Assembly: GCF_937951745.1 (NCBI RefSeq)
Contig: NZ_CALFBQ010000029.1
Span: 1-64,000, forward strand
From: an uncultured Chloroflexus sp.
GTDB lineage: Bacteria > Chloroflexota > Chloroflexia > Chloroflexales > Chloroflexaceae
Length of the DNA stretch: 64,000 bases
Direction: 5' to 3'
Shown here: positions 14,476 through 28,512 of the stretch, piece after piece
Numbering within the stretch: the stretch's first letter is position 1
How the letters are laid out: each line of letters begins with the position of its first letter
The notes under the pieces: model-generated
The model's database searches: none
What the model saw: the letters and a program-made list of their open reading frames with translations, nothing else
Told to the model about the DNA's origin: nothing
Position numbers and translations under genes: made by a program

Positions 14476-15675
14476 ATGCGCACTCTGATCTTCACCGGAA
14501 AAGGCGGCGTTGGCAAAACAAGCGTCGCGGCAGCAACGGCCCTCCGGGCTGCGGATCGTGGCTTAAAGACGTTGGTGATGAGCACCGATCCAGCCCACTC
14601 GCTGGCCGACTCGCTCGATCTCGAGGGGCCGCTCGGCCCTGAACCCGTTCGGATCACCAAGAACCTTGACGCGCTCGAAGTCAGCATTTACCACGACATC
14701 GAGAGCAATTGGGGCATCGTGCGCGAACACTTCGCTCAGCTCATGGCCGAGCAGGGCGTGCAGGGCATTTTAGCCGATGAGATGAGCGTCTTGCCGGGCA
14801 TGGAGGAGGCGTTCCCACTCATTCGGATCAAGAAGCACAAGGAGCGCGGTGATTACGATCTGCTCGTGATCGACTGCGCGCCGACCGGAGAGACGCTGCG
14901 GCTGCTCTCAGCGCCCGAAACGTTTAAGTGGGCGATTAATATGCTGCGTGGTGCCGAGCGGTTTGTGATCAAACCGATCCTCCGCCCGATGAGCAAGATT
15001 AATCCGACCCTCAATAAGATGGTTGCGCCGCCGGAGGTGTACGAGGCGGTTGATGATATGTTCCGCCAGTTGGAGGGCGTGACGGCGACGCTGGCGAATC
15101 CGCTTGAGACTTCGATCCGGCTGGTGATGAATCCCGAAAAGATGGTGATCAAAGAGAGCCAGCGAGCGTTGACCTACCTGTCGATGTATGGTATGACCGT
15201 CGATATGGTGGTGGTCAACAAGATCCTTCCGCTTGATCAAGACAGCGGCTATCTGAACCACTGGCGCGATGTGCAACAGCGCTACCTGCAAGATGTCGAG
15301 CACTCCTTTGTGCCGTTGCCCATCCGGCGGGTACCGTACTACCCCGAAGAGGTGGTGGGGCTTGAGAAGTTGCGCCAGATGGGTGACGATATCTATGGCG
15401 ACATGGATCCGACCGCTGTGCTCTACGATCGCGCGCCGCTCGATATTTCCAAGGTCGGCGATAAGTACTATCGAGTGAAGATCCGGTTGCCTTTCGCCGA
15501 CGTTTCCCAGCTCGATCTGTATCAGAACGGTGATGAGTTGGTGGTGCAGATCGGTGATTTCCGGCGGGTGTTGACGCTGCCGACTAGTCTAGCCGGCCTC
15601 GAAGCCGGTCAGGCGGAGATGGAGGGTGAGTGGTTGAGCGTACCCTTCATGGCGCCGCAGATGGCGTCGCGCTAA
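14476..15675 (+). CDS. ArsA/Get3-family ATPase with C-terminal alpha-crystallin-like domain (Get3d-like)
   Basis: A 399-residue ATPase. The deviant Walker A is intact: FTGKGGVGKTSVA, with both lysines K9 and K14. Switch I is MSTDPAHSLADSL and switch II/Walker B is LLVIDCAPTGETLRLL. The C-terminal 80 residues (about 315-395) form a beta-rich HSP20/alpha-crystallin-like domain containing IRLPFADVSQLDLYQNGDELVV. This domain order matches Get3d proteins, which to my knowledge are linked to photosynthetic lineages. Get3 relatives chaperone membrane proteins. It is first in the chlorosome run, 83 bases before csmA, and a promoter lies 140 bases upstream. Arsenite resistance is unlikely because no arsB or arsenite-binding cysteine cluster is visible. 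Confidence 0.9.
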   Translation: MRTLIFTGKGGVGKTSVAAATALRAADRGLKTLVMSTDPAHSLADSLDLEGPLGPEPVRITKNLDALEVSIYHDIESNWGIVREHFAQLMAEQGVQGILADEMSVLPGMEEAFPLIRIKKHKERGDYDLLVIDCAPTGETLRLLSAPETFKWAINMLRGAERFVIKPILRPMSKINPTLNKMVAPPEVYEAVDDMFRQLEGVTATLANPLETSIRLVMNPEKMVIKESQRALTYLSMYGMTVDMVVVNKILPLDQDSGYLNHWRDVQQRYLQDVEHSFVPLPIRRVPYYPEEVVGLEKLRQMGDDIYGDMDPTAVLYDRAPLDISKVGDKYYRVKIRLPFADVSQLDLYQNGDELVVQIGDFRRVLTLPTSLAGLEAGQAEMEGEWLSVPFMAPQMASR

Positions 15676-15758: not shown

Positions 15759-16001
15759 ATGGCGACGAGAGGCTGGTTCTCGGAGTCGTCGGCGCAAGTG
15801 GCGCAGATCGGCGACATTATGTTCCAAGGCCACTGGCAGTGGGTCTCGAATGCGCTGCAAGCCACCGCGGCCGCGGTTGACAACATCAACCGCAATGCTT
15901 ACCCGGGCGTGTCCCGGAGCGGCTCGGGCGAGAGCGGCTTCAGCAGCAGCTCGAGCAACGGCTTCCGTCCGAAGCGCATCCGCTCGCGCTTCAACCGCTA
16001 G
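15759..16001 (+). CDS. csmA: Chlorosome baseplate protein CsmA precursor
   Basis: The 80-residue precursor reads MATRGWFSESSAQVAQIGDI at the start and matches the C. aurantiacus CsmA as I remember it, apart from changes in the Ser-rich tail. His25 in MFQGHWQW is the proposed BChl a ligand of the paracrystalline baseplate. In C. aurantiacus the mature protein is 51 residues and a C-terminal extension of about 27 residues is removed. Here that tail is Ser-rich and ends with the basic RPKRIRSRFNR. The start at 15759 is preceded by AAGGAGG at ideal spacing, so translation should be very strong. A stem-loop follows the stop. CsmA connects BChl c aggregates to the membrane reaction centre. Confidence 0.97.
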   Translation: MATRGWFSESSAQVAQIGDIMFQGHWQWVSNALQATAAAVDNINRNAYPGVSRSGSGESGFSSSSSNGFRPKRIRSRFNR

Positions 16002-16061: not shown

Positions 16062-17180
16062 ATGATTAACCTGCTCTATTACAGCCATACTACCGTTCCA
16101 GCTCACCTCGAAGAGATTACGCGGCTTGATGTGCTCGATCCTGATGAGCAGGTGCTAGTCGCGGTTGATGGCGTGCTGCTCGATCAGCAGGGGCGCCGGC
16201 TGAGCGGCCCCACGCTGCACGACTATTGCCTGATTACCGATTTGCGGGTGGTGTTGTGGGCCCGTGATTATGGGCGCCACCTGTGTTTTGCATTTCCGTT
16301 GAGCGAATTGACCTTGATCGATGGCCGGGGAATCGATCCGATTCACGGGATGGTGACGCTCGGCTTTAGCGCGCCTGATGCCGAAGCGCAAGTCTTCACG
16401 CTCACGCTGGTGCCGCAAGCGTATGTGCCGGCGTTGATGATCTTGTTGCGCACAGCGGCTGAAACAGCGCGTGCGGCGTTGGCTGCCGGCATGGATGCCC
16501 GCCAAGCGGCGCCTGAGGTGATGACAGCACTTGGTGCCGCAATTTATGGTTCCGAAGATGCGTTGCGTCCCGATGAAATGCCCTATCGTTGGCCCGGCGG
16601 TGCGCCACGCACGCCGGCGACGCCAAATGCGCCCTTTGTAGTTGACCCGGCAAATTTGCCGCCTAATCAAATCTTTACTGCCGGCCGTCTCGCCCGTTCA
16701 GCGTGGGATACCCTGCGCCGCACGTTGCGTGAGGCAGATTTACCGTTTGACTTGAGTCCGGCAAGTATCCGTGAATTGACCGAAGCCATCCGTGCTGTTA
16801 ATGACTTAGTCCAAACTGTCACCAGTAATCCTGCTGCCCAGCAGATGGCGATGGCGTTTTTAAACCGCCAAGCGGCTACGCGCCAAGCCCAAGCTGAACC
16901 AGCGGGGTCGCCGGTCGTCGAGCCACCGGTGACGGAGCCGTCTCCCGCGCCGCCGGCTGGGCCGCGTTATCACGAAATACCGTTGCGTCGACGTACTCCG
17001 GCGCCGCCAGAAACGCCAGCGTCGCAGCCGTCAGCGCCAATCCCGCTGACCAAGCGGGCGTCATCCATCGAGATGCCGGATCGGCGTGAAATTCCGCTCC
17101 GCCGCCGGAGCACGCCGGTTCGCCGCGCGCCACTCACAGCGTTGAGCGGTTCGGGTGATGCCGATCACGATCAAGCATAG
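16062..17180 (+). CDS. Chlorosome-island PH-like protein 1 with Arg-rich tail
   Basis: A 372-residue protein of unknown function. Residues about 15-130 form a beta-rich domain with LDPDEQVLVAVDGVLLDQQGRR, YCLITDLRVVLWARDYG and FPLSELTLIDGRG. This is the pattern of bacterial PH/YokE-like domains (short strands, 'ITDLRVVLWAR', then a helix). A predicted helical region spans about 220-270. The tail from about residue 285 is Pro-rich and carries the motif EIPLRRR twice (305-311 and 343-349) and then TPVRR. The next gene encodes a paralogue. Its place directly after csmA and in front of the ATPases suggests a chlorosome envelope or assembly role. Confidence 0.7.
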   Translation: MINLLYYSHTTVPAHLEEITRLDVLDPDEQVLVAVDGVLLDQQGRRLSGPTLHDYCLITDLRVVLWARDYGRHLCFAFPLSELTLIDGRGIDPIHGMVTLGFSAPDAEAQVFTLTLVPQAYVPALMILLRTAAETARAALAAGMDARQAAPEVMTALGAAIYGSEDALRPDEMPYRWPGGAPRTPATPNAPFVVDPANLPPNQIFTAGRLARSAWDTLRRTLREADLPFDLSPASIRELTEAIRAVNDLVQTVTSNPAAQQMAMAFLNRQAATRQAQAEPAGSPVVEPPVTEPSPAPPAGPRYHEIPLRRRTPAPPETPASQPSAPIPLTKRASSIEMPDRREIPLRRRSTPVRRAPLTALSGSGDADHDQA

Positions 17181-17223: not shown

Positions 17224-18558
17224 ATGAGCCCATTTCTCGGTGTCAATGTGAGCATGGCGAGCGTCGAGGAATTGCGCCAGCGCGATTTGCTGGAGGAAGG
17301 CGAGACGCTGCTTGCTCTCTTCGATGGTACGTTGCTCGATGAGAATCGCCGCCGGGTTGGCGGTCTTGCGCTGGCTGATTTTGTCGCGTTGACCGACCGC
17401 CGGCTGATTCTGTGGGCGCGCGGCTTCTTTAACGATACCGTCGATGGTTTTCCTTGGAGCGATGTTGATGTGGTGCGCGCCGAGACATGGGATCCGTGGC
17501 ATGGTCGCGTCAGCCTTGCGCTGCGCATTCCGGCAACGCCACCACGCAAGCGCCGCGTTGCGCTCGGCGAGGTGCAAGACCCCGGCCAACCTGAGCGGGT
17601 GATTGTGAATACGCTCGATTACATGCCGGCGGAAGATGTTGATATGCTGGCCAAAATGGTGGCATGGGTCGGTGACCAAGTGTTGGCCGGTGTCAGCGGG
17701 GAAGAATTGGTGAAGGCCTTTGAGGCTGAGTTCCCAGCCGTGGAACGCAAGCCCCTGCCGCCGTTCTTTATGAGCGAACCGGCTCCGCCGCCGATGCCGG
17801 AACCAGAGCCGAAGAAGCCGGCCAAGAAGCCATGGTGGAAGTTTGGCGCTGCCAAGGAGGAAGAAGAGCCTGCTCCCGCTTCACCGAGCAATCTGATCGC
17901 TGCTTACGAGAGCCAGCGGGGCGGTGCTCCGGCTGGTGTGACGCCGGCGCCGGTCGGCCCATTGCCAACGTTACCCGAACAACCCAATATGTACGAGGTG
18001 AGTCGGTCGTTGCGCTTGATGCTTGAGGTGCCACGCGGGTTGGCGCGCGGTCTGCGGCGGGCGAGCGAGATCATGAGCGGCGCGACCGAGTTGCTGAACA
18101 ATATGCAAGATCCGCGCGTGCGCCGTAATGCGATGCGTGGCATCTATTATGCTGCTGCCCAGCAAGAGGCGGAGGGCGGGCCATTGGCTCCTGTGGGGCC
18201 GGTGGTGCGCGCTGCTGTCCGGTTTGCTGAACCAACCGAACCACAGTCAGGCGCCGAGCAGCCGGTGCAGCGCCGGATTGCGGTGCGAGCCACGGTACGG
18301 CAAGCAACGCCTTCGCCGGCGGCGGCTGAACCGGCGGCATCGCCGGCGCCTGAAACCGCCGGCCCGCAACCGGTGCGCCGCGCCATTAGTGTGCGCCGGG
18401 TCGAACCGCCGGTCGAGGAGACTGGCTCGTCGATGCCGGTGCGCCGCGTGGTGGTCAATCGCACCGACCGCCCTGCCGCAGTTAGTGGCAGCGGCGCCGG
18501 TACGTCGGCGCGTGAACCGCTCAATGGCCGATCGGATGATGAGCCGGAAGCGCAGTGA
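17224..18558 (+). CDS. Chlorosome-island PH-like protein 2 with Arg-rich tail
   Basis: A 444-residue paralogue of the preceding protein. The N-terminal domain aligns throughout: EGETLLALFDGTLLDENRRR, ALTDRRLILWARGFF and FPWSDVDVVRAET. A lysine/proline-rich linker follows at about residues 185-225. The helical region SRSLRLMLEVPRGLARGLRR begins at about residue 259. The tail has several copies of an Arg-rich motif: QRRIAVRATVR (349-359), VRRAISVRR (384-392) and MPVRRVVVNR (404-413). It probably arose by duplication of the upstream gene. RBS AAGGAG precedes the ATG. No enzymatic motif is visible. A scaffold or envelope-binding role is inferred from position and composition only. Confidence 0.7.
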   Translation: MSPFLGVNVSMASVEELRQRDLLEEGETLLALFDGTLLDENRRRVGGLALADFVALTDRRLILWARGFFNDTVDGFPWSDVDVVRAETWDPWHGRVSLALRIPATPPRKRRVALGEVQDPGQPERVIVNTLDYMPAEDVDMLAKMVAWVGDQVLAGVSGEELVKAFEAEFPAVERKPLPPFFMSEPAPPPMPEPEPKKPAKKPWWKFGAAKEEEEPAPASPSNLIAAYESQRGGAPAGVTPAPVGPLPTLPEQPNMYEVSRSLRLMLEVPRGLARGLRRASEIMSGATELLNNMQDPRVRRNAMRGIYYAAAQQEAEGGPLAPVGPVVRAAVRFAEPTEPQSGAEQPVQRRIAVRATVRQATPSPAAAEPAASPAPETAGPQPVRRAISVRRVEPPVEETGSSMPVRRVVVNRTDRPAAVSGSGAGTSAREPLNGRSDDEPEAQ

Positions 18559-18604: not shown

Positions 18605-19828
18605 ATGACGCGAGTCATTATCTATTCCGGTAAGGGCGGTACTGGTAAGACGACGCTCTCGGCGGCGACAGCAGTGATTCTGGCGCAGTCTGGCCGCCGC
18701 ACACTGGTGCTCTCGAGCGATCCGGCTCACTCGCTGGCCGATGTGATGGGGATACCGATCAGCCGCGATCGGCCAACACCGCTGGCTCCCCATCTCTATG
18801 GTCTCGAAGTGGATACGATCTATGAGTGGCGCCAGAATCTGGGTGGCTTTCAGCAGTTCGTGACAGCGACCTATTCGGCTCGTGGTATTGAACGCTCAAC
18901 GGCTGCTGAACTGGCCAATCAGCCCGGTCTTGATGAAATCCTCGCGTTGCAACGGGTGATGGATGAAGCGCAGAGCGGTCGTTGGGATGCGATTGTGCTT
19001 GATACCGCGCCGACCGGCAATACGTTGCGCTTGTTGGCCTACCCCGAAATGATCATCGGCGGTGAAGCTGGAAAGCGGTTATTCCGCGTCTATCGCGGGA
19101 TCGCGAATGTCGCCCGCCCGTTCCGGCGTGATTTGCCCGATGACCGCTTCTTTGAAGAGGTGGGCAAGCTGCTCGAACGGATGGATCAACTGGCCAACTT
19201 TTTGGTCAGTTCGGCGGTTTCGGTGCGGTTGGTGCTGAATCCGGAGCGCTTGCCGTTGCTTGAGACACGCCGTGCCTATACCTTCCTAAGCCTGTATGGC
19301 CTGCAACTCGATGCGGTGCTGGTGAATAAGATTTTGCCACACCGCACTGATCTTGGCCCGTACTTTGATTACTGGGTCAACCTCCAGCAGCAGTATCTGG
19401 CTGAGATTGAGGCGAGCTTTGCGCCGACGCCAATCTTCCGTACCGTGTTGCAAGGTGGTGAACCGATCGGAGTTGATGCGCTGTTGCACGTTGGCCGGCT
19501 GACCTTCGGCGATGTCGATCCGGGGGCGCTGCTCTACGATGAACGGCCGATCTGGCTCGAGCAGTGGAGCGAAGATGGCGAACCCGGCCAATATGATCTC
19601 TGTTTGCGGTTGCCGTTCCTTGATGTCGGTGAGTCGATCGAAGTAAGCCATAGCGGTCCCGATTTGACCATTACGGTCGGGCGGATCGAGCGCACAATTG
19701 CCTTGCCACGGGTGTTGTACGATTGTGTCCTCGGTGAACATCGCTATGAAGATGGCGTCTTGCGGCTGGCCTTCTACGAGGCTAGCGCTGCCCGCGCCAG
19801 CGGCAAACAGCAAGTTGAGGCGGCCTAA
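18605..19828 (+). CDS. ArsA/Get3-family ATPase with C-terminal alpha-crystallin-like domain, second copy
   Basis: The 407-residue protein keeps all nucleotide-handling motifs: YSGKGGTGKTTLSA (K10 and K15), SSDPAHSLADVMG as switch I, and VLDTAPTGNTLRLL as switch II. It has the C-terminal alpha-crystallin-like domain (from about residue 325, LRLPFLDVGESIEVSHSG). It is about one third identical by eye to the first copy and equally Get3d-like. It is likely a homo- or heterodimeric ATPase that handles hydrophobic clients. Upstream spacing to the PH-like gene is 46 bases. The closest neighbour downstream is a pseudo-ATPase homologue, with which it may pair. Confidence 0.9.
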   Translation: MTRVIIYSGKGGTGKTTLSAATAVILAQSGRRTLVLSSDPAHSLADVMGIPISRDRPTPLAPHLYGLEVDTIYEWRQNLGGFQQFVTATYSARGIERSTAAELANQPGLDEILALQRVMDEAQSGRWDAIVLDTAPTGNTLRLLAYPEMIIGGEAGKRLFRVYRGIANVARPFRRDLPDDRFFEEVGKLLERMDQLANFLVSSAVSVRLVLNPERLPLLETRRAYTFLSLYGLQLDAVLVNKILPHRTDLGPYFDYWVNLQQQYLAEIEASFAPTPIFRTVLQGGEPIGVDALLHVGRLTFGDVDPGALLYDERPIWLEQWSEDGEPGQYDLCLRLPFLDVGESIEVSHSGPDLTITVGRIERTIALPRVLYDCVLGEHRYEDGVLRLAFYEASAARASGKQQVEAA

Positions 19829-21013: not shown

Positions 21014-22021
21014 ATGTCAGTGCTTGCCCAGCCGATCCCGATCGATCGACCGCCGGCGCGACCGATCGATGCGCCGCCAACGGCCAAGTATATTGAGTAT
21101 GTCAATGAGGTGGCGACACGCCTTGCCGGCAAGTTGAGTGCCCGTGAACGGCGCCGGCTGGAAGGTGAACGCGCGCTCTTGGCCCGCGCCCGCTTTATCG
21201 AGCTGAACGGCGTTGTGCATCACTATCAAGATGTCGGGCCGCTCGATGGCGAACCGTTGCTGCTCATCCACGGCTGGGATTGTTCGTCGTTTTGGTGGCA
21301 TCACGTGATCGATCCACTAGCGCAAGCCGGTTACCGCGTGGTGAGCTACGATTTGAAAGGGCACGGCTTTTCTGATAGCGATCCGCGCCAAGATTATACC
21401 GTGGCCGGGTTTAGCGCCGATGTGCAGGCGTTGTCACGCGCACTGAATCTTGGTCCGGCCCACGTGGCTGCTTTCTCGCTCGGTGCGTTTATTGGGCTGC
21501 ACGTGGCAGCCCACCAACCCGAATTAGTGCGCTCGCTGATCTTCTTTAACTTTAGCTTGCTGCCGTACAATAAGTTTGCTTCGCAGTTTGTGCCGCGCTT
21601 GCTCGATACCGTGTTTAACAGGGTGTTGCGCCCGATCGAGCGGCGTAATCTGTGGTGGCTGCCCTTTATCTATGCCCGGCTAGTGATGGCGCAGAATACC
21701 CCATCCATTAGCGATATTCGGCTCGGCACGCTCGGTTTGCGCTATTGCGATCCGGCAGCAGTGCGGGTATCGGCGACCGAATTGTCGCGCCCCGAGATTT
21801 TGGCCGCCGTGGCCGAGCAAGCCAAGACGATCCAGCAGCCGCTCTTGTTGGTGGCCGGCGCCAACGACCCGATCATGCGTCCGGCCGATGGGCGCAAATT
21901 GGTGGCGCTCGCCCCCAATAGTTCATTTTTGGAAGTGCCGAAGTGCGGTCATCTAATTTTGTTTGAATTGCCCGAGCACGTCATTCAAATTATGCGCCTC
22001 TTCTTGAAAGGCGTTCGCTAG
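21014..22021 (+). CDS. Alpha/beta hydrolase of the chlorosome island
   Basis: A 335-residue alpha/beta hydrolase with a 60-residue N-terminal extension. Key elements are LLIHGWDCSSFWW (oxyanion region), the nucleophile elbow VAAFSLGAFIGLHVA with Ser at about residue 156, an acid candidate in VAGANDPIMRP, and the His in VPKCGHLILFELP. The F-S-L-G-A elbow departs from the canonical G-x-S-x-G at the first position. Translation is coupled to the pseudo-ATPase (15-base gap) and driven by GAAGGGGGG. Lipid, pigment-ester or thioester substrates are all possible. A BchO-like role is a weak alternative. Function is not known. Confidence 0.75.
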   Translation: MSVLAQPIPIDRPPARPIDAPPTAKYIEYVNEVATRLAGKLSARERRRLEGERALLARARFIELNGVVHHYQDVGPLDGEPLLLIHGWDCSSFWWHHVIDPLAQAGYRVVSYDLKGHGFSDSDPRQDYTVAGFSADVQALSRALNLGPAHVAAFSLGAFIGLHVAAHQPELVRSLIFFNFSLLPYNKFASQFVPRLLDTVFNRVLRPIERRNLWWLPFIYARLVMAQNTPSISDIRLGTLGLRYCDPAAVRVSATELSRPEILAAVAEQAKTIQQPLLLVAGANDPIMRPADGRKLVALAPNSSFLEVPKCGHLILFELPEHVIQIMRLFLKGVR

Positions 22022-22033
22022 GGAGGTCGGTGT

Positions 22034-22915
22034 ATGCAGTTGTTGCTTCGTTCTGGCGGCCAACAAATGATCATCGATATGGAGCGGGCTGATGACCGCC
22101 CGCTGTCGGTCGGCCAGTATACCTACCGGCCCCGCCGATTGGCCGGCAAGGTGCGCCGGCTGGTCGCTAAGATGTGGCCTGATATGCCCTCGTCAGTGCT
22201 CGATGAGCGCCTGACCTTCGAGGCGCTGGATAACGGGCGCGAGACGGCGTGGGGCGATAGCGGCAGCTTTTCACCGCGCTCTGGTTCGACCGTGCTGCTT
22301 GGGCGCTGGGATGAAGACGGAAGTGTGGGGATTGCATTGCACGAGTTGGCCCATGAAATGCACCTGCGCCACGGTGGCTACGATGATAGCGATGGTGTGG
22401 TGCGCGAGGCGCTCGCGATGCTGGCTGAACGCGAAGCCGGTCTGCGCCGCACGTTTGAGCGCGAACCGTACCATTCAGCATGCCAGTTGATCGAACAACT
22501 CGAAGAGTTGCCGGCCTTTAGCCGGATGGCGTTCAGCAAGCGGTGGGCCGAGGTGGTCAGCGTGACGTCGGCGGCTGGGTTAGCCGATCTGATTAATTAC
22601 TATCTGGATCGCAGCGAGCGGTTGGGGTTAGCGCGTTGGCTTGATCGCCTGACGAAAAATGTTGATGTGCGGGATCAATTGTTAGCCCGCTTGGCGAGCA
22701 CATCGCTGCGTTACAGCCTAGATCTGCGTCGCCACCTGATTAAAAAGTTGGTGCGGTGCAAACCGGAAACGCCGGTGGAGCAACTCATGTATGTCCTTGA
22801 TTCAATCGCTACGCTTGATCGGCGCTATCCAAATGATGATCTTGAGCGCATTATCAATTTCTGTTTCGCGCCGTATGTGCCGCAGCGTCGCCGTCTCTTC
22901 GCTTTTGGCTCGTGA
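22034..22915 (+). CDS. HExxH-motif putative metallopeptidase of the chlorosome island
   Basis: A 293-residue protein of no family that I recognise. Residues 103-113 read HELAHEMHLRH. This is an HExxH zinc motif with another His five residues later (HExxHxxxxxH), which has the spacing of metzincins but with His in place of the usual Gly. Around it the sequence is hydrophilic, with no signal peptide or transmembrane segment. The second half is helical (SKRWAEVVSVTSAAGLADLI and several similar stretches). In the chlorosome run, a candidate job is maturation of a chlorosome protein such as the CsmA tail. That is inference. RBS GGGAGG precedes the ATG. Confidence 0.6.
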   Translation: MQLLLRSGGQQMIIDMERADDRPLSVGQYTYRPRRLAGKVRRLVAKMWPDMPSSVLDERLTFEALDNGRETAWGDSGSFSPRSGSTVLLGRWDEDGSVGIALHELAHEMHLRHGGYDDSDGVVREALAMLAEREAGLRRTFEREPYHSACQLIEQLEELPAFSRMAFSKRWAEVVSVTSAAGLADLINYYLDRSERLGLARWLDRLTKNVDVRDQLLARLASTSLRYSLDLRRHLIKKLVRCKPETPVEQLMYVLDSIATLDRRYPNDDLERIINFCFAPYVPQRRRLFAFGS

Positions 22916-22930: not shown

Positions 22931-23707
22931 ATGAATCGCTTCGAAGAAGAAAACCCGACTGTTCGTTGGATGCCCGGATTTGCGCGCCGGTGGTTTGGTC
23001 TGAGTAATGAAGACCCCCGTCGCAGTATCGATGCACGGTATCAGTGGATGCCCAATTGGTTGAAGCGTTTGTTGAATTTGGATGACACGCCAGTGCCGTA
23101 TGCTGGCGAAGCGGAGCCGGCTGCGCCGAGCCGGCCATCGTATGGCTATCCGCCGCCGTCGGGTTCGTATACGCCCGGTGCGGCATCATACACGCCCGGC
23201 ACGCCCTCGTTTACGCCGCGCAGCTTTGCTCCAGCAACCTATCGGCCGGCCAGCGAGGAGGTGCCTGCCACGCCAGCCCGCCTGAGCCTCGCCGGTGATG
23301 AGTTGCCGCCTGATGTGCAGCCAATCGGATATCTGCTGCGTTCGTATGCGCGCGGGGCCTTGCCGCCGCAGGGGCTTGAGGCCTTTACCCGCGAGGTGCG
23401 CACGACGACTGAGAAGGTGCTGAACTTCTACGGTCATTGGATTCGCTTCCAGACCGAGGAGCTGGTTCGCATCGGTTGTGACCTGTTTAATGCCGCAGTT
23501 GATGCCTTGCCCGGCGAGAAGACCAAGCAACAGCCGCAGACGATCCGGCGGATTAAGGTGGTCGCTGATAACGGCAATGGTAATGATGTCGCTTCTGCTG
23601 CGGTGGCGCCGGCCCAATCAATGCCATCGACGGTTCCTCCAGCCGCCGAAACGCCAGTGGCTACGGATGAGCCTAAGTCTCGTTCCGAAGACAAAGATAA
23701 AGAGTAG
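22931..23707 (+). CDS. Low-complexity chlorosome-island protein of unknown function
   Basis: A 258-residue protein with three parts. The start holds an internally duplicated motif, RWMPGFARRWFGLSNED and then QWMPNWLKRLLNLDD, about 35 residues apart. Both are amphipathic and rich in Trp and Arg, which suggests binding to a lipid surface. Residues about 70-115 are Pro/Thr/Tyr-rich with repeated YTPG / FTPR units. A helical region from about 135 to 205 follows, and the tail is Lys/Glu-rich. No homologous family is known to me. Operon context (15 bases after the HExxH gene) and the amphipathic Trp motifs fit an envelope-associated role. Confidence 0.65.
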   Translation: MNRFEEENPTVRWMPGFARRWFGLSNEDPRRSIDARYQWMPNWLKRLLNLDDTPVPYAGEAEPAAPSRPSYGYPPPSGSYTPGAASYTPGTPSFTPRSFAPATYRPASEEVPATPARLSLAGDELPPDVQPIGYLLRSYARGALPPQGLEAFTREVRTTTEKVLNFYGHWIRFQTEELVRIGCDLFNAAVDALPGEKTKQQPQTIRRIKVVADNGNGNDVASAAVAPAQSMPSTVPPAAETPVATDEPKSRSEDKDKE

Positions 23708-23710
23708 ACT

Positions 23711-24394
23711 ATGCCCCGTCCGGTAGTGATTATGGGCGGGTGGCTGTCGTCGCCCGCCGATTACTTCGGTATGGCGCGCGTGCTAGCCTCGCCGCCATAC
23801 AATCGGATCGTGTATGTGGTTGATTTCAGCCGGTTAGCGTGGGCACGCTTGCGCGATCCTGATTTCGGGCCGGCGCTTGATGCGCTCGCAGCGACGGTGC
23901 GGATTGCGCTTGAAGAAACCGGCGCTGATAAAGTTGATTTGATCGGCCATAGCGCCGGCGGTCGGATTGCGCGCGCCTATTTGTCCGATGAGCCGTATCA
24001 AGGGGTGCGTTATGCCGGCCATGAGGTGGTAGCAAGCTTAACCACGTTGGGGACGGCCCATGCCACGTCGGAGATCTGGGTGAAACAGTTTGCCGACTGG
24101 CTTGAGGCGCGGTATCCCGGCGCAGCTTTTCCTCACGTCAAGTATCGCGCTGTAGCAGGGCGGAGTGTGCGTGGCCGTCGTTTCGGCAATCCCGAAGAGA
24201 TGATTGCCTATCGTTCCTATGAGGTTTCGTTCGGCAATGGGAATTTGGTTGGCGATGGGATTGTGCCGACAGCAGCGTGCTATCTGGCCGGTGCCGACAA
24301 CTTGATCTTAGAGGGTGCGCGCCATGCACCGTATAACGCGCCGGCGACGTGGTACGGCGCACGGGATGTAGTGCCGCTGTGGTTTGAGGATTGA
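23711..24394 (+). CDS. Lipase-like alpha/beta hydrolase, tandem copy 1
   Basis: The 227 residues match class-2/PGAP1-like lipases. The opening PVVIMGGWLSSPADYFGMARVL has the oxyanion loop, and the nucleophile is in LIGHSAGGRIARAYLSD (G-H-S-A-G, Ser near residue 80). A candidate acid and His lie near NLVGDGIVPT and GARHAPYNAP at the end. No signal peptide is present, so it acts in the cytoplasm, where chlorosomes lie. The gene starts only three bases after the upstream stop. The following gene is its paralogue. Galactolipid or wax-ester remodelling at the chlorosome envelope is a plausible but unproven role. Confidence 0.8.
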   Translation: MPRPVVIMGGWLSSPADYFGMARVLASPPYNRIVYVVDFSRLAWARLRDPDFGPALDALAATVRIALEETGADKVDLIGHSAGGRIARAYLSDEPYQGVRYAGHEVVASLTTLGTAHATSEIWVKQFADWLEARYPGAAFPHVKYRAVAGRSVRGRRFGNPEEMIAYRSYEVSFGNGNLVGDGIVPTAACYLAGADNLILEGARHAPYNAPATWYGARDVVPLWFED

Positions 24395-24405: not shown

Positions 24406-25119
24406 ATGGCCCGTCCGCTGGTGATTATTGGCGGTTATCTGACCAGTCCGAGCGATTTTGCGGCACTGGCGCGGACGCTCGAACAACCACCATTTAGTTT
24501 TCGCGTCTTCGTGACCCCAATCGGTCGTATGCGCTGGGCTTTAACCCGTGATTGGGATTTTCGGCCGGTGTTGCGGATTGTGCGCGACACGGTCGCTCGG
24601 GCCTTGCGCGAAACCGGCGCTGAAACCGTGACTCTTCTGGCCCATAGTGTCGGTGGCACGGTGGCGCGCATGTATCTCGGTGATCAGCCGTACAAAGGTG
24701 ACATCTATGGCGGCCACCGGTTCGTGCATCACTTGATCATGCTCGGTACGCCGCACCATAGCCAAGAGTTCTGGACGCGCCAGACCGTCGGGTTTACTAA
24801 TCGTTGTTATCCCGGCGCGTATTATGATCAGATCCGCTATACCTCGATTATTGGCCGCAGCATTCAGGCCAATCGGCGAGGACGCTGGGTTGAGCGGATG
24901 GCGTATAACAGCTACGTGCTGATCGACGGCCCTGCCGGCGCGCAGGCGTGGGGTGACGGGATTACAACGCTGACCTGCGCAGCGCTAGCTGGCGCCGAGT
25001 ATTTGGTCGTGCCCGGGTTGCATCACTCTCCTATCCACGGTCGTCCGTGGTATGGCGACCCGGAAGGGTTAAGATACTGGCAACGAGTGTTGTTGGGATC
25101 CTCATCAGTTGTTGTTTGA
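24406..25119 (+). CDS. Lipase-like alpha/beta hydrolase, tandem copy 2
   Basis: The ATG at 24406 (RBS TCAGGAG) gives 237 residues. It aligns with the upstream copy along its whole length: PLVIIGGYLTSPSDFAALARTL, then LLAHSVGGTVARMYLGD with the nucleophilic Ser, and a C-terminal LHHSPIHGRPWYGD with the His candidate. The two clearly come from a tandem duplication. The pair may have different substrates or act on different leaflets. A promoter for the next gene overlaps its stop codon. Confidence 0.8.
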   Translation: MARPLVIIGGYLTSPSDFAALARTLEQPPFSFRVFVTPIGRMRWALTRDWDFRPVLRIVRDTVARALRETGAETVTLLAHSVGGTVARMYLGDQPYKGDIYGGHRFVHHLIMLGTPHHSQEFWTRQTVGFTNRCYPGAYYDQIRYTSIIGRSIQANRRGRWVERMAYNSYVLIDGPAGAQAWGDGITTLTCAALAGAEYLVVPGLHHSPIHGRPWYGDPEGLRYWQRVLLGSSSVVV

Positions 25120-25656: not shown

Positions 25657-25688
25657 GTTACATCGCACTTGTGCGCGAGGGGGACCGC

Positions 25689-26753
25689 ATGACGACTTCA
25701 CCTTCGGTTGAACCAACCACGACGGGCACCGCGGCGCTTGAGCAACAAGAGCTATTTGCCGCAACCAACCGTGCCTATGATATGGTGTTTAAGGGCACGG
25801 TGGATTTCTTCGTGATTAAGGCGGCAAAAGATTTGGGGCTGTTTGATCTGTTGGCTGCCGAACCGCGCACGCTGGCTGATCTGGCAACCTTGACCGAGAC
25901 AGTGCCGTCGCGGCTAGAGAAGTTCTTGATTACGCTCGAGCAGGTAGGTCTGGCGGCGCGGAAAGATGATCGCTGGCAGCTCACCCCCTTCGCCGAGCAA
26001 TTCTTTGCCGATCCCGAACGCCATCGCAATATGACGATGGTGCCGTTCGTGGATTATATTTCCGATTTAATCGAGAATTACTACCTGCGGCTGGCTGATG
26101 TGGTGCGCGGGAAGGTTGATTTTACCAGCATTGTGCCGCATCCGCCGCGCACTCGCGAAGATAGCCTGTTTTACGAGACGTTGCACCGCTCGAATATCCA
26201 GCTCTTCGTCGAGTTGTTAGTCAAGCGGGCACGGCTGGCCGATGTGCAGATGCTGATCGATGTCGGCGGCGGCATTGGCGATATTGCGGCGGCCCTCTGT
26301 CAAGCCTTCCCCAATCTCAAGGTGAAGTTGATCAACTTGCCCAGCGCGCTCGATCTAGTGCGCGAGAATGTAGCGGCCAAAGGTCTGAGTGACCGGATTA
26401 CGCCGGTGGCGGTCGATATGTACCGCGAGCCGTATCCTCCCGGTGATGCAGTGCTCTTCTCGCGCATTCTCTACCCGATGAATGCGCAGTTCTGCTCGAT
26501 GTTGCTCAAGAAGGCCTACGATGCGTTGCCGAGTGGCGGGAAGGTGCTGATCCTCGATATGGTAATCAGCGATCCGCAGCATCCAAACTACGATTATCTG
26601 ACCCACTACCTGTGCGCGATTGGGATGGGCTTTTCGGTGCTTGAGTTCAAGGATCACGCGATCTACCCTGATCTGCTGCGCCAAATCGGGTTTACCGACG
26701 TGACCTTCGATGAGGGGTACGAACACGTTTTGTATCAGGCGGTAAAACCGTAA
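25689..26753 (+). CDS. bchU: Bacteriochlorophyllide c/d C-20 methyltransferase
   Basis: The ATG at 25689 (RBS GAGGGGG) gives 354 residues. The sequence follows Chlorobaculum BchU closely: MVFKGTVDFFVIKAAKDLGL near the start, the SAM motif MLIDVGGGIGDIAAAL, then SGGKVLILDMVISDP and NYDYLTHYL near the end. BchU methylates C-20 of the bacteriochlorophyllide macrocycle and so turns the BChl d type into BChl c, shifting the absorption of chlorosome aggregates. O-methyltransferases are the closest alternative, but the conserved HRSN and LTHYL segments support BchU. The gene precedes bchK, the next step acting on the pigment. Confidence 0.93.
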   Translation: MTTSPSVEPTTTGTAALEQQELFAATNRAYDMVFKGTVDFFVIKAAKDLGLFDLLAAEPRTLADLATLTETVPSRLEKFLITLEQVGLAARKDDRWQLTPFAEQFFADPERHRNMTMVPFVDYISDLIENYYLRLADVVRGKVDFTSIVPHPPRTREDSLFYETLHRSNIQLFVELLVKRARLADVQMLIDVGGGIGDIAAALCQAFPNLKVKLINLPSALDLVRENVAAKGLSDRITPVAVDMYREPYPPGDAVLFSRILYPMNAQFCSMLLKKAYDALPSGGKVLILDMVISDPQHPNYDYLTHYLCAIGMGFSVLEFKDHAIYPDLLRQIGFTDVTFDEGYEHVLYQAVKP

Positions 26754-26812: not shown

Positions 26813-27730
26813 ATGATTTCGACTGAACAGCACGTCTCGCTCAGCCGAAAAATCCGGGCCCATATCGAGCTTGCCGATCCGGTGACGTGGATTTCGCCGG
26901 TGCTGGTCTGTTTCTGTGGCGCACTGGCGTCAGGCTACGAGCGAGGTTTTGACTGGACGCGGCCCGATCACTGGTGGCTCATACTGTTGGGCGCGTTGAT
27001 GACCGGCCCGCTCGGTACCGGCTTCAGCCAGAGTATTAACGATTATTTCGATCGTGAACTGGATGCGATCAACGATCCACAACGCCCGATTCCGGCCGGC
27101 ATTGTGACGCTGAATGAGGCACGCTGGAATTGGATCGTACTCGGCACAGCAACCATGCTGGTGTCGCTGGTCTTTGGTCAGCCGTTGATCGTCTTCTTCG
27201 CCTTTGTCGGTATCGTGCTGTCGGTAATCTACAGCATGCCGCCGATCAAGCTGAAGAAACATTTCTGGTTGGGGCCGCCGGCAGTCGGGTTGGGTTACGT
27301 TAGTATGAGCTGGATGGCTGGCCATCTGATATTTGCGCCATTGACGTGGCAAAGCGTGGTGGTAGCGTTGATCAATGGCGGTTTAGCGGCCGGCTTGCTC
27401 TTTCTTAACGATATTAAGAGCGTTGAGGGTGATCGCAGGTTGGGCCTGAAATCACTCACGGTTGCGATTGGCGTGAAGCGCACGCTAATTGTGGCTTACG
27501 CAACGATTAACGGCTTCGAGGCAATGCTGATGATATTGGCGTTGGTGTGGGGGCAATACTGGGTGGCAGCGTTTATTCTGCTGGCATTGGTAGTGCCGAT
27601 CTATAATCAGATTAAGCTCTACCGTGAACCAAACCAGCAGAATTACGTGCGTTACCTGCTAGCCTCCAACCCATTTGTGGCCTTGATCCAGATTGTCTCG
27701 GGTTTTCTGGTGGGCGGCTATTTTGGCTGA
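26813..27730 (+). CDS. bchK: Bacteriochlorophyll c synthase (prenyltransferase)
   Basis: A 305-residue polytopic prenyltransferase of the UbiA/BchG/ChlG group. The first aspartate-rich motif is NDYFDRELDAINDPQRPI and the second is NDIKSVEGDRRLG, both needed for Mg-diphosphate binding. About eight hydrophobic segments fit the UbiA fold. BchK attaches the long-chain alcohol to the C-17 propionate of bacteriochlorophyllide c. The neighbours bchU, csmM and csmN in one run make BchK more likely than BchG (BChl a) or ChlG. It acts at the membrane, close to where chlorosomes grow. Confidence 0.93.
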   Translation: MISTEQHVSLSRKIRAHIELADPVTWISPVLVCFCGALASGYERGFDWTRPDHWWLILLGALMTGPLGTGFSQSINDYFDRELDAINDPQRPIPAGIVTLNEARWNWIVLGTATMLVSLVFGQPLIVFFAFVGIVLSVIYSMPPIKLKKHFWLGPPAVGLGYVSMSWMAGHLIFAPLTWQSVVVALINGGLAAGLLFLNDIKSVEGDRRLGLKSLTVAIGVKRTLIVAYATINGFEAMLMILALVWGQYWVAAFILLALVVPIYNQIKLYREPNQQNYVRYLLASNPFVALIQIVSGFLVGGYFG

Positions 27731-27749: not shown

Positions 27750-28037
27750 ATGACGGAGACTGAAGGTGAGGTCCGAGTGCGCAGCGTCCCGGTGCGGCGC
27801 AGTGACAGCTTTGTCGAGTCGGCGATGGAGTTCGGCGGCGGCGTAGTTCGCCTTGGCATGTCGGTCTTTACGCTGCCCTTCGCGCTGCTGCCGCCAGAGT
27901 CGCGCCAGCACATGCGTAATGCGACCAAGGAGCTGATGTACGCCTTCGCCTCGTTGCCGCGTGATTTCGCCGAAATCGCTGGCAAGAGCATCGAGAAATG
28001 GGCGGCTGAGGGCGAAGAAAAGACTGAGGCGAAGTAA
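27750..28037 (+). CDS. csmM: Chlorosome envelope protein CsmM
   Basis: The 95 residues (about 10.5 kDa) match the 11-kDa envelope protein of C. aurantiacus in size, and it is adjacent to csmN as expected. Residues 8-17 hold the Arg-rich VRVRSVPVRR. A central segment, GGGVVRLGMSVFTLPFALLP, is amphipathic to hydrophobic and is repeated in CsmN. The C-terminal half is helical and acidic. CsmM and CsmN coat the chlorosome surface. A strong AAGGAGG lies before the ATG. Confidence 0.92.
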   Translation: MTETEGEVRVRSVPVRRSDSFVESAMEFGGGVVRLGMSVFTLPFALLPPESRQHMRNATKELMYAFASLPRDFAEIAGKSIEKWAAEGEEKTEAK

Positions 28038-28074: not shown

Positions 28075-28512
28075 ATGAGCAATGAGACGACCAACGAGCG
28101 TGATGGCTTGTTTGAGCTGGCGGCTAGTTTTGTCGGGGGGGCAACCCGGATTGGCCTGACAGTTGCTTCGGTGCCGCTGGTGCTGTTGCCGCGCAATTCG
28201 CGCCGCCGCGTGCGCCGGGCGATGGCCGAGGTAGCAATGGCGGTGGTGGCATTTCCGAAAGAGCTGGCCAATATTTCAGAGCGGGTAGTTGATGATATCG
28301 TCGCGGCTGAGCCACCGCAGATCTCGTTGCCGAGCCCGAAGCAGGTTGGCGAGCAGGTGCGCTCGTTTACCGAGCGGCTGTCGCGCGCGGCGGAAGAGCT
28401 TGGCACGAGCTTTAGCCGGGCTGCCGGACGGGCTGCCGACGCGGTTGAGCAGGGTGCAGCCAAGGTTGATGAGTGGGTTGAGACGCCGCCCAAGACGCCG
28501 CCGGCGCCGTGA
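28075..28512 (+). CDS. csmN: Chlorosome envelope protein CsmN
   Basis: The 145 residues (about 15.5 kDa) fit the 18-kDa-apparent envelope protein. The first 75 residues are homologous to CsmM: FVGGATRIGLTVASVPLVLLP aligns with FGGGVVRLGMSVFTLPFALLP, and AVVAFPKELANIS aligns with YAFASLPRDFAEIA. A further 65-residue tail is helical and Pro-rich at its end (PPKTPPAP). The two genes clearly arose by duplication. GAGGAGG precedes the ATG. A strong hairpin after the gene ends the chlorosome run. Confidence 0.92.
   Translation: MSNETTNERDGLFELAASFVGGATRIGLTVASVPLVLLPRNSRRRVRRAMAEVAMAVVAFPKELANISERVVDDIVAAEPPQISLPSPKQVGEQVRSFTERLSRAAEELGTSFSRAAGRAADAVEQGAAKVDEWVETPPKTPPAP

Follow-up and report, generated by a model that had tools for sequence, protein, structure and literature searches.

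The candidate peptidase gene and its surroundings

The window, a stretch of 64,000 nucleotides from an uncultured Chloroflexus sp., carries a run of plus-strand genes that includes csmA, bchU and a bchK-type synthase, with csmM and csmN assigned by their order (Table 1). As the initial annotation had stated, this run also holds the open reading frame of a candidate peptidase, a protein of 293 residues (P0001) that is soluble by sequence. The gene is single-copy in the genome and tightly packed, starting 12 bases after the stop codon of the upstream alpha/beta hydrolase and followed by the next gene after 15 bases, and scans for promoters and terminators gave no usable operon boundary. Compared with other Chloroflexus loci, the identity of the window protein reaches up to 100%. 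The gene order of the window, including the succession of bchU and bchK, is that of C. aurantiacus as given in PMC3150298, where csmA is Caur_0126, bchU 0137, bchK 0138, csmM 0139 and csmN 0140. By counting genes along this shared order, we infer that the peptidase gene corresponds to about Caur_0132, a tag of which no mention was found in the literature searched.

Several neighbouring genes encode proteins with basic tails. VRRxIxV-like motifs were counted 55 times in 27 sequences of protein d (mean of 2.4 in shuffles) and 27 times in 27 sequences of protein i (mean of 0.5), and IPLRR[RK] was present in 22 of 26 protein c sequences, in locus sets to which paralogous genes contribute some cross-hits. 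The low-confidence C-terminus of the candidate peptidase is QRRRLFAFG-like. Possibly, these basic tail motifs represent a short motif for targeting to the chlorosome.

Table 1 Features of the chlorosome gene cluster in the window
Feature	Position	Strand	Basis
ArsA-type ATPase, just upstream of csmA, likewise in Chloroheliaceae	14476-15675	+	PF02374; synteny (L126, L127)
csmA, chlorosome baseplate protein, proposed substrate	15759-16001	+	PF02043 at 15765-15995; AAGGAGG before ATG 15759
CsmA residues 69-80 (FRPKRIRSRFNR), conserved terminal part of the removed tail	15963-15998	+	Conservation; synonymous codon variation
Cluster protein c, no family; IPLRRR-repeat tail	16062-17180	+	
Cluster protein d, no family above cut-off; VRRxIxV-repeat tail	17224-18558	+	
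Second ArsA-type ATPase	18605-19828	+	PF02374; synteny
Alpha/beta hydrolase 1, rival candidate	21014-22021	+	PF00561; 36-genome distribution
Candidate chlorosome gluzincin peptidase	22034-22915	+	Open reading frame (from ATG at 22034 to a stop codon with last base 22915) and translation; 36/158 class genomes; structure models
Putative HExxH zinc-site motif HELAH, residues 103-107	22340-22354	+	H103, E104 and H107 identical in orthologues; model helix 94-113
Y116	22379-22381	+	Invariant, 34/34
E125, proposed third zinc ligand (gluzincin Glu)	22406-22408	+	34/34; helix 121-134 in models
Fast-evolving cluster protein i, without a family; none found in Chloroheliaceae	22931-23707	+	
Alpha/beta hydrolase 2; homologues in both Chloroheliaceae	23711-24394	+	
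Alpha/beta hydrolase 3, paralogue of hydrolase 2	24409-25119	+	
bchU	25671-26753	+	TIGR02716, 585 bits
bchK-type (bacterio)chlorophyll synthase	26813-27730	+	TIGR01476 over cut-off
csmM	27750-28037	+	Gene order after bchK (PMC3150298); synteny
csmN	28075-28512	+	Gene order after bchK (PMC3150298); synteny

Conservation of the putative zinc site

Residues 103-113 of the translation read HELAHEMHLRH, as noted in the initial annotation, which had taken the third histidine at metzincin spacing as a mark of the protein. To follow these positions, 61 full-length orthologous loci were collapsed to 34 distinct sequences, with the partial loci L056 and L062 excluded. Pairwise identity among the 34 falls to 28%, and the invariant columns number 40, including H103, E104, H107, E108, H110, G114, Y116, E125, E132 and E134. 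An HExxH motif is uncommon by composition, arising in 147 of 20,000 shuffles of the candidate peptidase, yet the invariance of H103, E104 and H107 in all 34 sequences is the more telling sign that the motif stands above chance. Of the earlier reading, the conserved zinc-protease-like protein thus stands and the metzincin type does not. While H103 and H107 are kept throughout, residue 113 is a histidine in just 8 distinct orthologues and otherwise serine (8), arginine (8), alanine (4), glutamine (2), asparagine (2), cysteine (1) or aspartate (1). The metzincin glycine is absent as well, as residue 110 is a histidine in 34/34. Although the window protein does display HExxHxxxxxH, a metzincin-type protease with three histidine ligands is ruled out by the variability of H113 among the orthologues, and we consider this reading virtually excluded.

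The HExxH motif is instead followed by the invariant E125, located 18 residues after H107 and in the next helix of the models, which is the layout of a gluzincin. Judged from sequence and predicted helix position, E125 is most likely the third zinc ligand, rather than H113. The invariant H110 was also considered as third ligand (HExxHxxH), but it lies on the same helix only three residues past H107, and E125 was judged the better candidate; H110 may still have a role at the zinc site. The nine residues separating Y116 from E125 presumably match the spacing between Tyr157 of thermolysin and its glutamate ligand. Overall, the candidate is quite likely a gluzincin-type peptidase, with zinc binding and catalysis predicted from these features.

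Predicted fold and relation to known families

AlphaFold produced confident models for both the window protein (pLDDT 92.4, pTM 0.88) and the orthologue of Ca. Chloroheliaceae L227-5C, 34% identical (pLDDT 89.2, pTM 0.85), and the order of structural elements is much alike in the two. In the VIA-align comparisons, which hardly cover residues beyond about 234 in either model, the best match of the window model was the M4 vibriolysin 3nqx (Z 9.0, rmsd 3.3, 168 residues aligned), and thermolysin 5fxn aligned over 184 residues (Z 8.2, rmsd 3.8). M4 enzymes also came first for the L227-5C model (Z 8.8, rmsd 3.4, 168 residues aligned); families outside the VIA-align lists may match as well. HExxH and E125 lie within successive helices of the window-protein model (Table 1). 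Foldseek returned no match for the window model at E ≤ 0.001, with ACE2 chains as the first rows. As Z scores around 9 are only moderate, the predicted fold is described as gluzincin-like and best resembling thermolysin-fold enzymes, and not as proven. In both models, residue 2 already opens strand 1 of the domain, leaving no extra N-terminal region in the 293 residues. Such a start, lacking a signal or propeptide, fits a cytosolic enzyme, and the candidate peptidase is apparently cytosolic, to judge from sequence and models.

Family searches did not connect the protein to a described group. Pfam gave no family at E ≤ 1 for the window protein, and the same search with 26 members at E ≤ 1 gave sub-threshold rows only, M4 not being among them. 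These rows included the putative metallopeptidase families DUF6782 (two members, best E 0.13) and Peptidase_M90 (one member, best E 0.067). NCBIfam held no family for the candidate, with one chance row at E 0.048, and PDB sequence searches with the single protein and with a profile gave chance-level rows only; among plasmids and phages, there was no match. The candidate appears to be a hitherto undescribed kind of cytosolic zinc protease.

Co-occurrence with csmA

Among the 158 genomes of the class, low-completeness genomes included, the candidate gene was found in 36 and csmA (PF02043) in 35; both occur together in 34, csmA alone in one (G031), the candidate gene alone in two (G020 and G025), and neither in 121. 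Thus, 34 of the 35 csmA genomes carry the gene, the sole exception falling at a contig break, and all three mismatches sit at assembly breaks. The association is judged from these counts, and no weight is given to a Fisher value, which disregards common ancestry of the genomes. In G031, the csmA contig (L128) ends inside the next gene and another contig begins ~240 bases before hydrolase 2; as hydrolase 1 and protein i are also missing, the block in between was probably not assembled. The G025 contig, 4,052 bases long, breaks off shortly after hydrolase 1, while in G020 the csmA side falls off a contig (L056) of 4,203 bases. For G044, a weak row for csmA (E 0.002, with one internal stop) was left uncounted, since it was absent from the Pfam PF02043 search. 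Hydrolase 1 is found in exactly the same 36 genomes as the candidate peptidase and is a second chlorosome-linked enzyme.

The reaction centre II family (PF00124) is present in 63 of the 158 genomes, 31 of which are devoid of csmA. The candidate gene occurs in two of these 31, the broken assemblies G020 and G025, and the remaining 29 have neither gene, which indicates an association of the gene with the chlorosome rather than with phototrophy as such. We hold with high confidence that it is dedicated to chlorosomes. Six genomes of the window's own family (G004, G005, G018, G019, G021 and G022) encode reaction centre II and carry none of csmA, the peptidase and hydrolase 1; apparently, these are chlorosome-free members. 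One of them, G004, keeps a 39% identical relative of hydrolase 2.

Beyond the class, 400 genomes from across the phylum were searched with a profile, at most six candidates being scored per genome; the gene was found in 22, all belonging to the two chlorosome families. A scan with exact 8-residue patterns across 84,980 species gave 27 loci, with relatives only in Chloroflexota. Their titles name Chloroflexota, Chloroflexales, Chloroflexaceae or genera thereof, except for L056, which is labelled Gracilibacteria and whose coordinates are those of G020:C6 in family f1. The scan is insensitive, as it found L227-5C and no locus of the second Chloroheliaceae genome, G085 (which may be outside that collection), and so its silence on Chlorobi and Chloracidobacterium means little. 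Going by this insensitive scan, Chlorobi may use another enzyme for CsmA processing, and if they indeed have no relative, the processing would differ between phyla.

The second lineage, Chloroheliaceae

Two genomes of Chloroheliaceae keep the candidate gene, namely G086 (Ca. Chloroheliaceae L227-5C) and G085, probably Ca. Chlorohelix. The authors of the Chloroheliaceae genomes report csmA and describe a chlorosome physiology with a type I reaction centre for strain L227-S17 (PMC10972752). The peptidase gene lies ~2.1 Mb from csmA on the same contig in G085 and on a different contig from csmA in G086, and its retention away from csmA is an argument for a functional connection between the two rather than simple proximity. 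Yet, the same argument applies to hydrolases 1 and 2, which are also retained, with identities of 40 and 39% for hydrolase 1 and 42 and 35% for hydrolase 2. In L227-5C, 27 bases separate the candidate gene from bchH downstream of it (TIGR02025 with 1407.9 bits, cut-off 829), a neighbour that could point to a role in pigment synthesis, and in G085 it is directly followed by a methyltransferase gene. At the Chloroheliaceae loci L126:8406-12700 and L127:8636-13200 (approximate), csmA is grouped with an ArsA-type ATPase and with relatives of proteins c and d, as in Chloroflexaceae. Being grouped in both lineages, these genes may be the most ancient section of the phylum's chlorosome cluster.

CsmA and its removed tail

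CsmA is the one protein of the chlorosome common to the three chlorosome-bearing phyla (PMC9316378). Proteolysis removes its C-terminal residues in Cba. tepidum and in most homologues (PMC4992139), and a mature protein of 5.7 kDa is reported for Chloroflexus and Oscillochloris (PMC3175400). The 80 residues of the window CsmA have a calculated mass of 8.7 kDa, while 51-53 residues give 5.6-5.8 kDa. In C. aurantiacus, the cut presumably falls after residue 51. The mature form solved for Chlorobi has 59 residues (2k37/5lcb). No protease for CsmA was named in the literature searched, a set that most subscription papers fell outside.

Conservation across 26 distinct CsmA sequences, expressed as mean majority fraction, is 0.87 over residues 1-51 and 0.86 over residues 52-59, drops to 0.41 over residues 60-68 and rises to 0.91 over residues 69-80. 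R70, K72, S76, R77 and F78 of the tail are invariant (loci L065-L130), including in Chloroheliaceae, which keep these tail residues despite a CsmA identity of about 30%. Codons vary synonymously within the tail end (21 tails, one of them shifted by one residue in the comparison). For a segment that is cut off and yet conserved like the mature part, the best explanation is a processing or assembly signal, and this conservation favours a dedicated protease over unspecific trimming.

Proposed function and alternative explanations

The candidate gene would accordingly encode a chlorosome-dedicated cytosolic gluzincin that most likely acts as a maturation peptidase, with E104 as the putative general base and E125 as the putative third ligand. 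It could be envisaged that pre-CsmA carries a C-terminal tail ending in a conserved 12-residue recognition or assembly signal, that CsmA is placed in the nascent baseplate before the tail is cut, and that the peptidase then cuts near residue 51-53 to leave the mature CsmA of 5.7 kDa. We give slightly less than an even chance to the CsmA tail being the main substrate, with substrate and timing both inferred, and the gene, suggested as maturation enzyme by the initial annotation, is a good but unproven candidate for the CsmA-trimming enzyme.

The co-occurrence with csmA would fit equally well if a chlorosome-dedicated gluzincin had another main substrate, trimming or turning over proteins c, d or i, CsmM/CsmN, or a bacteriochlorophyll enzyme such as BchH. 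The proximity of bchH in L227-5C and the long tails with repeated basic motifs on proteins c, d and i speak for such a role, which we regard as possible, if somewhat doubtful, given that protein i was not found in Chloroheliaceae where the peptidase is present and that the G085 neighbour is a methyltransferase gene and not bchH. Removal of the CsmA tail might also fall to one of the alpha/beta hydrolases, the initial annotation having named the adjacent serine hydrolases as an alternative, or to a general protease of the cytosol that trims a disordered end, with the candidate acting otherwise in the chlorosome. As hydrolases 1 and 2 are distributed alike or similarly to the peptidase, association alone does not single out the peptidase gene, and the differing ends of mature CsmA (59 residues in Chlorobi, about 51-53 in Chloroflexus from the 5.7 kDa) would suit trimming. 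However, alpha/beta hydrolases of this Pfam family (PF00561) mostly act on small molecules, the HExxH protein is the one with an endopeptidase-like predicted fold, and the tail end is too conserved for a merely disordered remnant, making this explanation rather unlikely. Finally, some HExxH proteins are not peptidases, and the candidate could bind zinc and the CsmA tail as a structural or assembly factor that does not cut. An inert site would need neither E104 nor a tyrosine at the Tyr157 spacing, both of which are invariant in 34/34, and a non-cutting role is therefore very improbable.

Under the preferred reading of a CsmA-trimming gluzincin, it could be speculated that chlorosomes of Chloroflexota mature in a procapsid-like manner, in which a conserved, removable assembly tag on CsmA is cut by a dedicated gluzincin to lock the baseplate. 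This extension is tentative and less likely than not; if true, the gluzincin would found a new peptidase family, occurring in this phylum only with chlorosomes, and the recurrent basic motifs on the tails of nearby cluster proteins would belong to the tagging system too. The candidate gene offers a testable entry to how chlorosomes, the large organelles with which green bacteria harvest light, are assembled, for which the conserved CsmA tail provides a ready peptide substrate.

Comparison with known peptidases

The closest resemblance is to the M4 peptidases, including vibriolysin, thermolysin and aureolysin. Like these, the candidate combines an HExxH helix with a glutamate in the next helix and a tyrosine nine residues earlier, and its models place strands ahead of the active-site helix and a helical part at the C-terminus, with M4 enzymes as best structural matches of both. 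In contrast, identity is only 5-14% in the M4 rows of VIA-align for the window model, there is no Pfam M4 match, and the glutamate lies 18 residues after the second histidine, where that of thermolysin lies 20 residues past it. M4 peptidases are moreover secreted, with a signal and propeptide for which the candidate has no room. Lugdulysin of family M30 (7bb8/7bb9), a secreted staphylococcal enzyme, represents the other type of zincin that scored near the top; it covers most of the model, with Z scores of 8.5-8.6 for the window model and 8.1-8.2 for the L227-5C model but an identity of just 11-13%. With metzincins, the Chloroflexus protein has the HExxHxxxxxH string in common, whereas in its family the third histidine is variable and the glycine lacking. 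In terms of role, the nearest analogue would be CtpA, the C-terminal processing protease of D1, which likewise removes a C-terminal extension from a photosynthetic protein. CtpA is an extracytoplasmic serine protease of family S41, and the likeness to the candidate peptidase is one of function, with no relation in sequence claimed.
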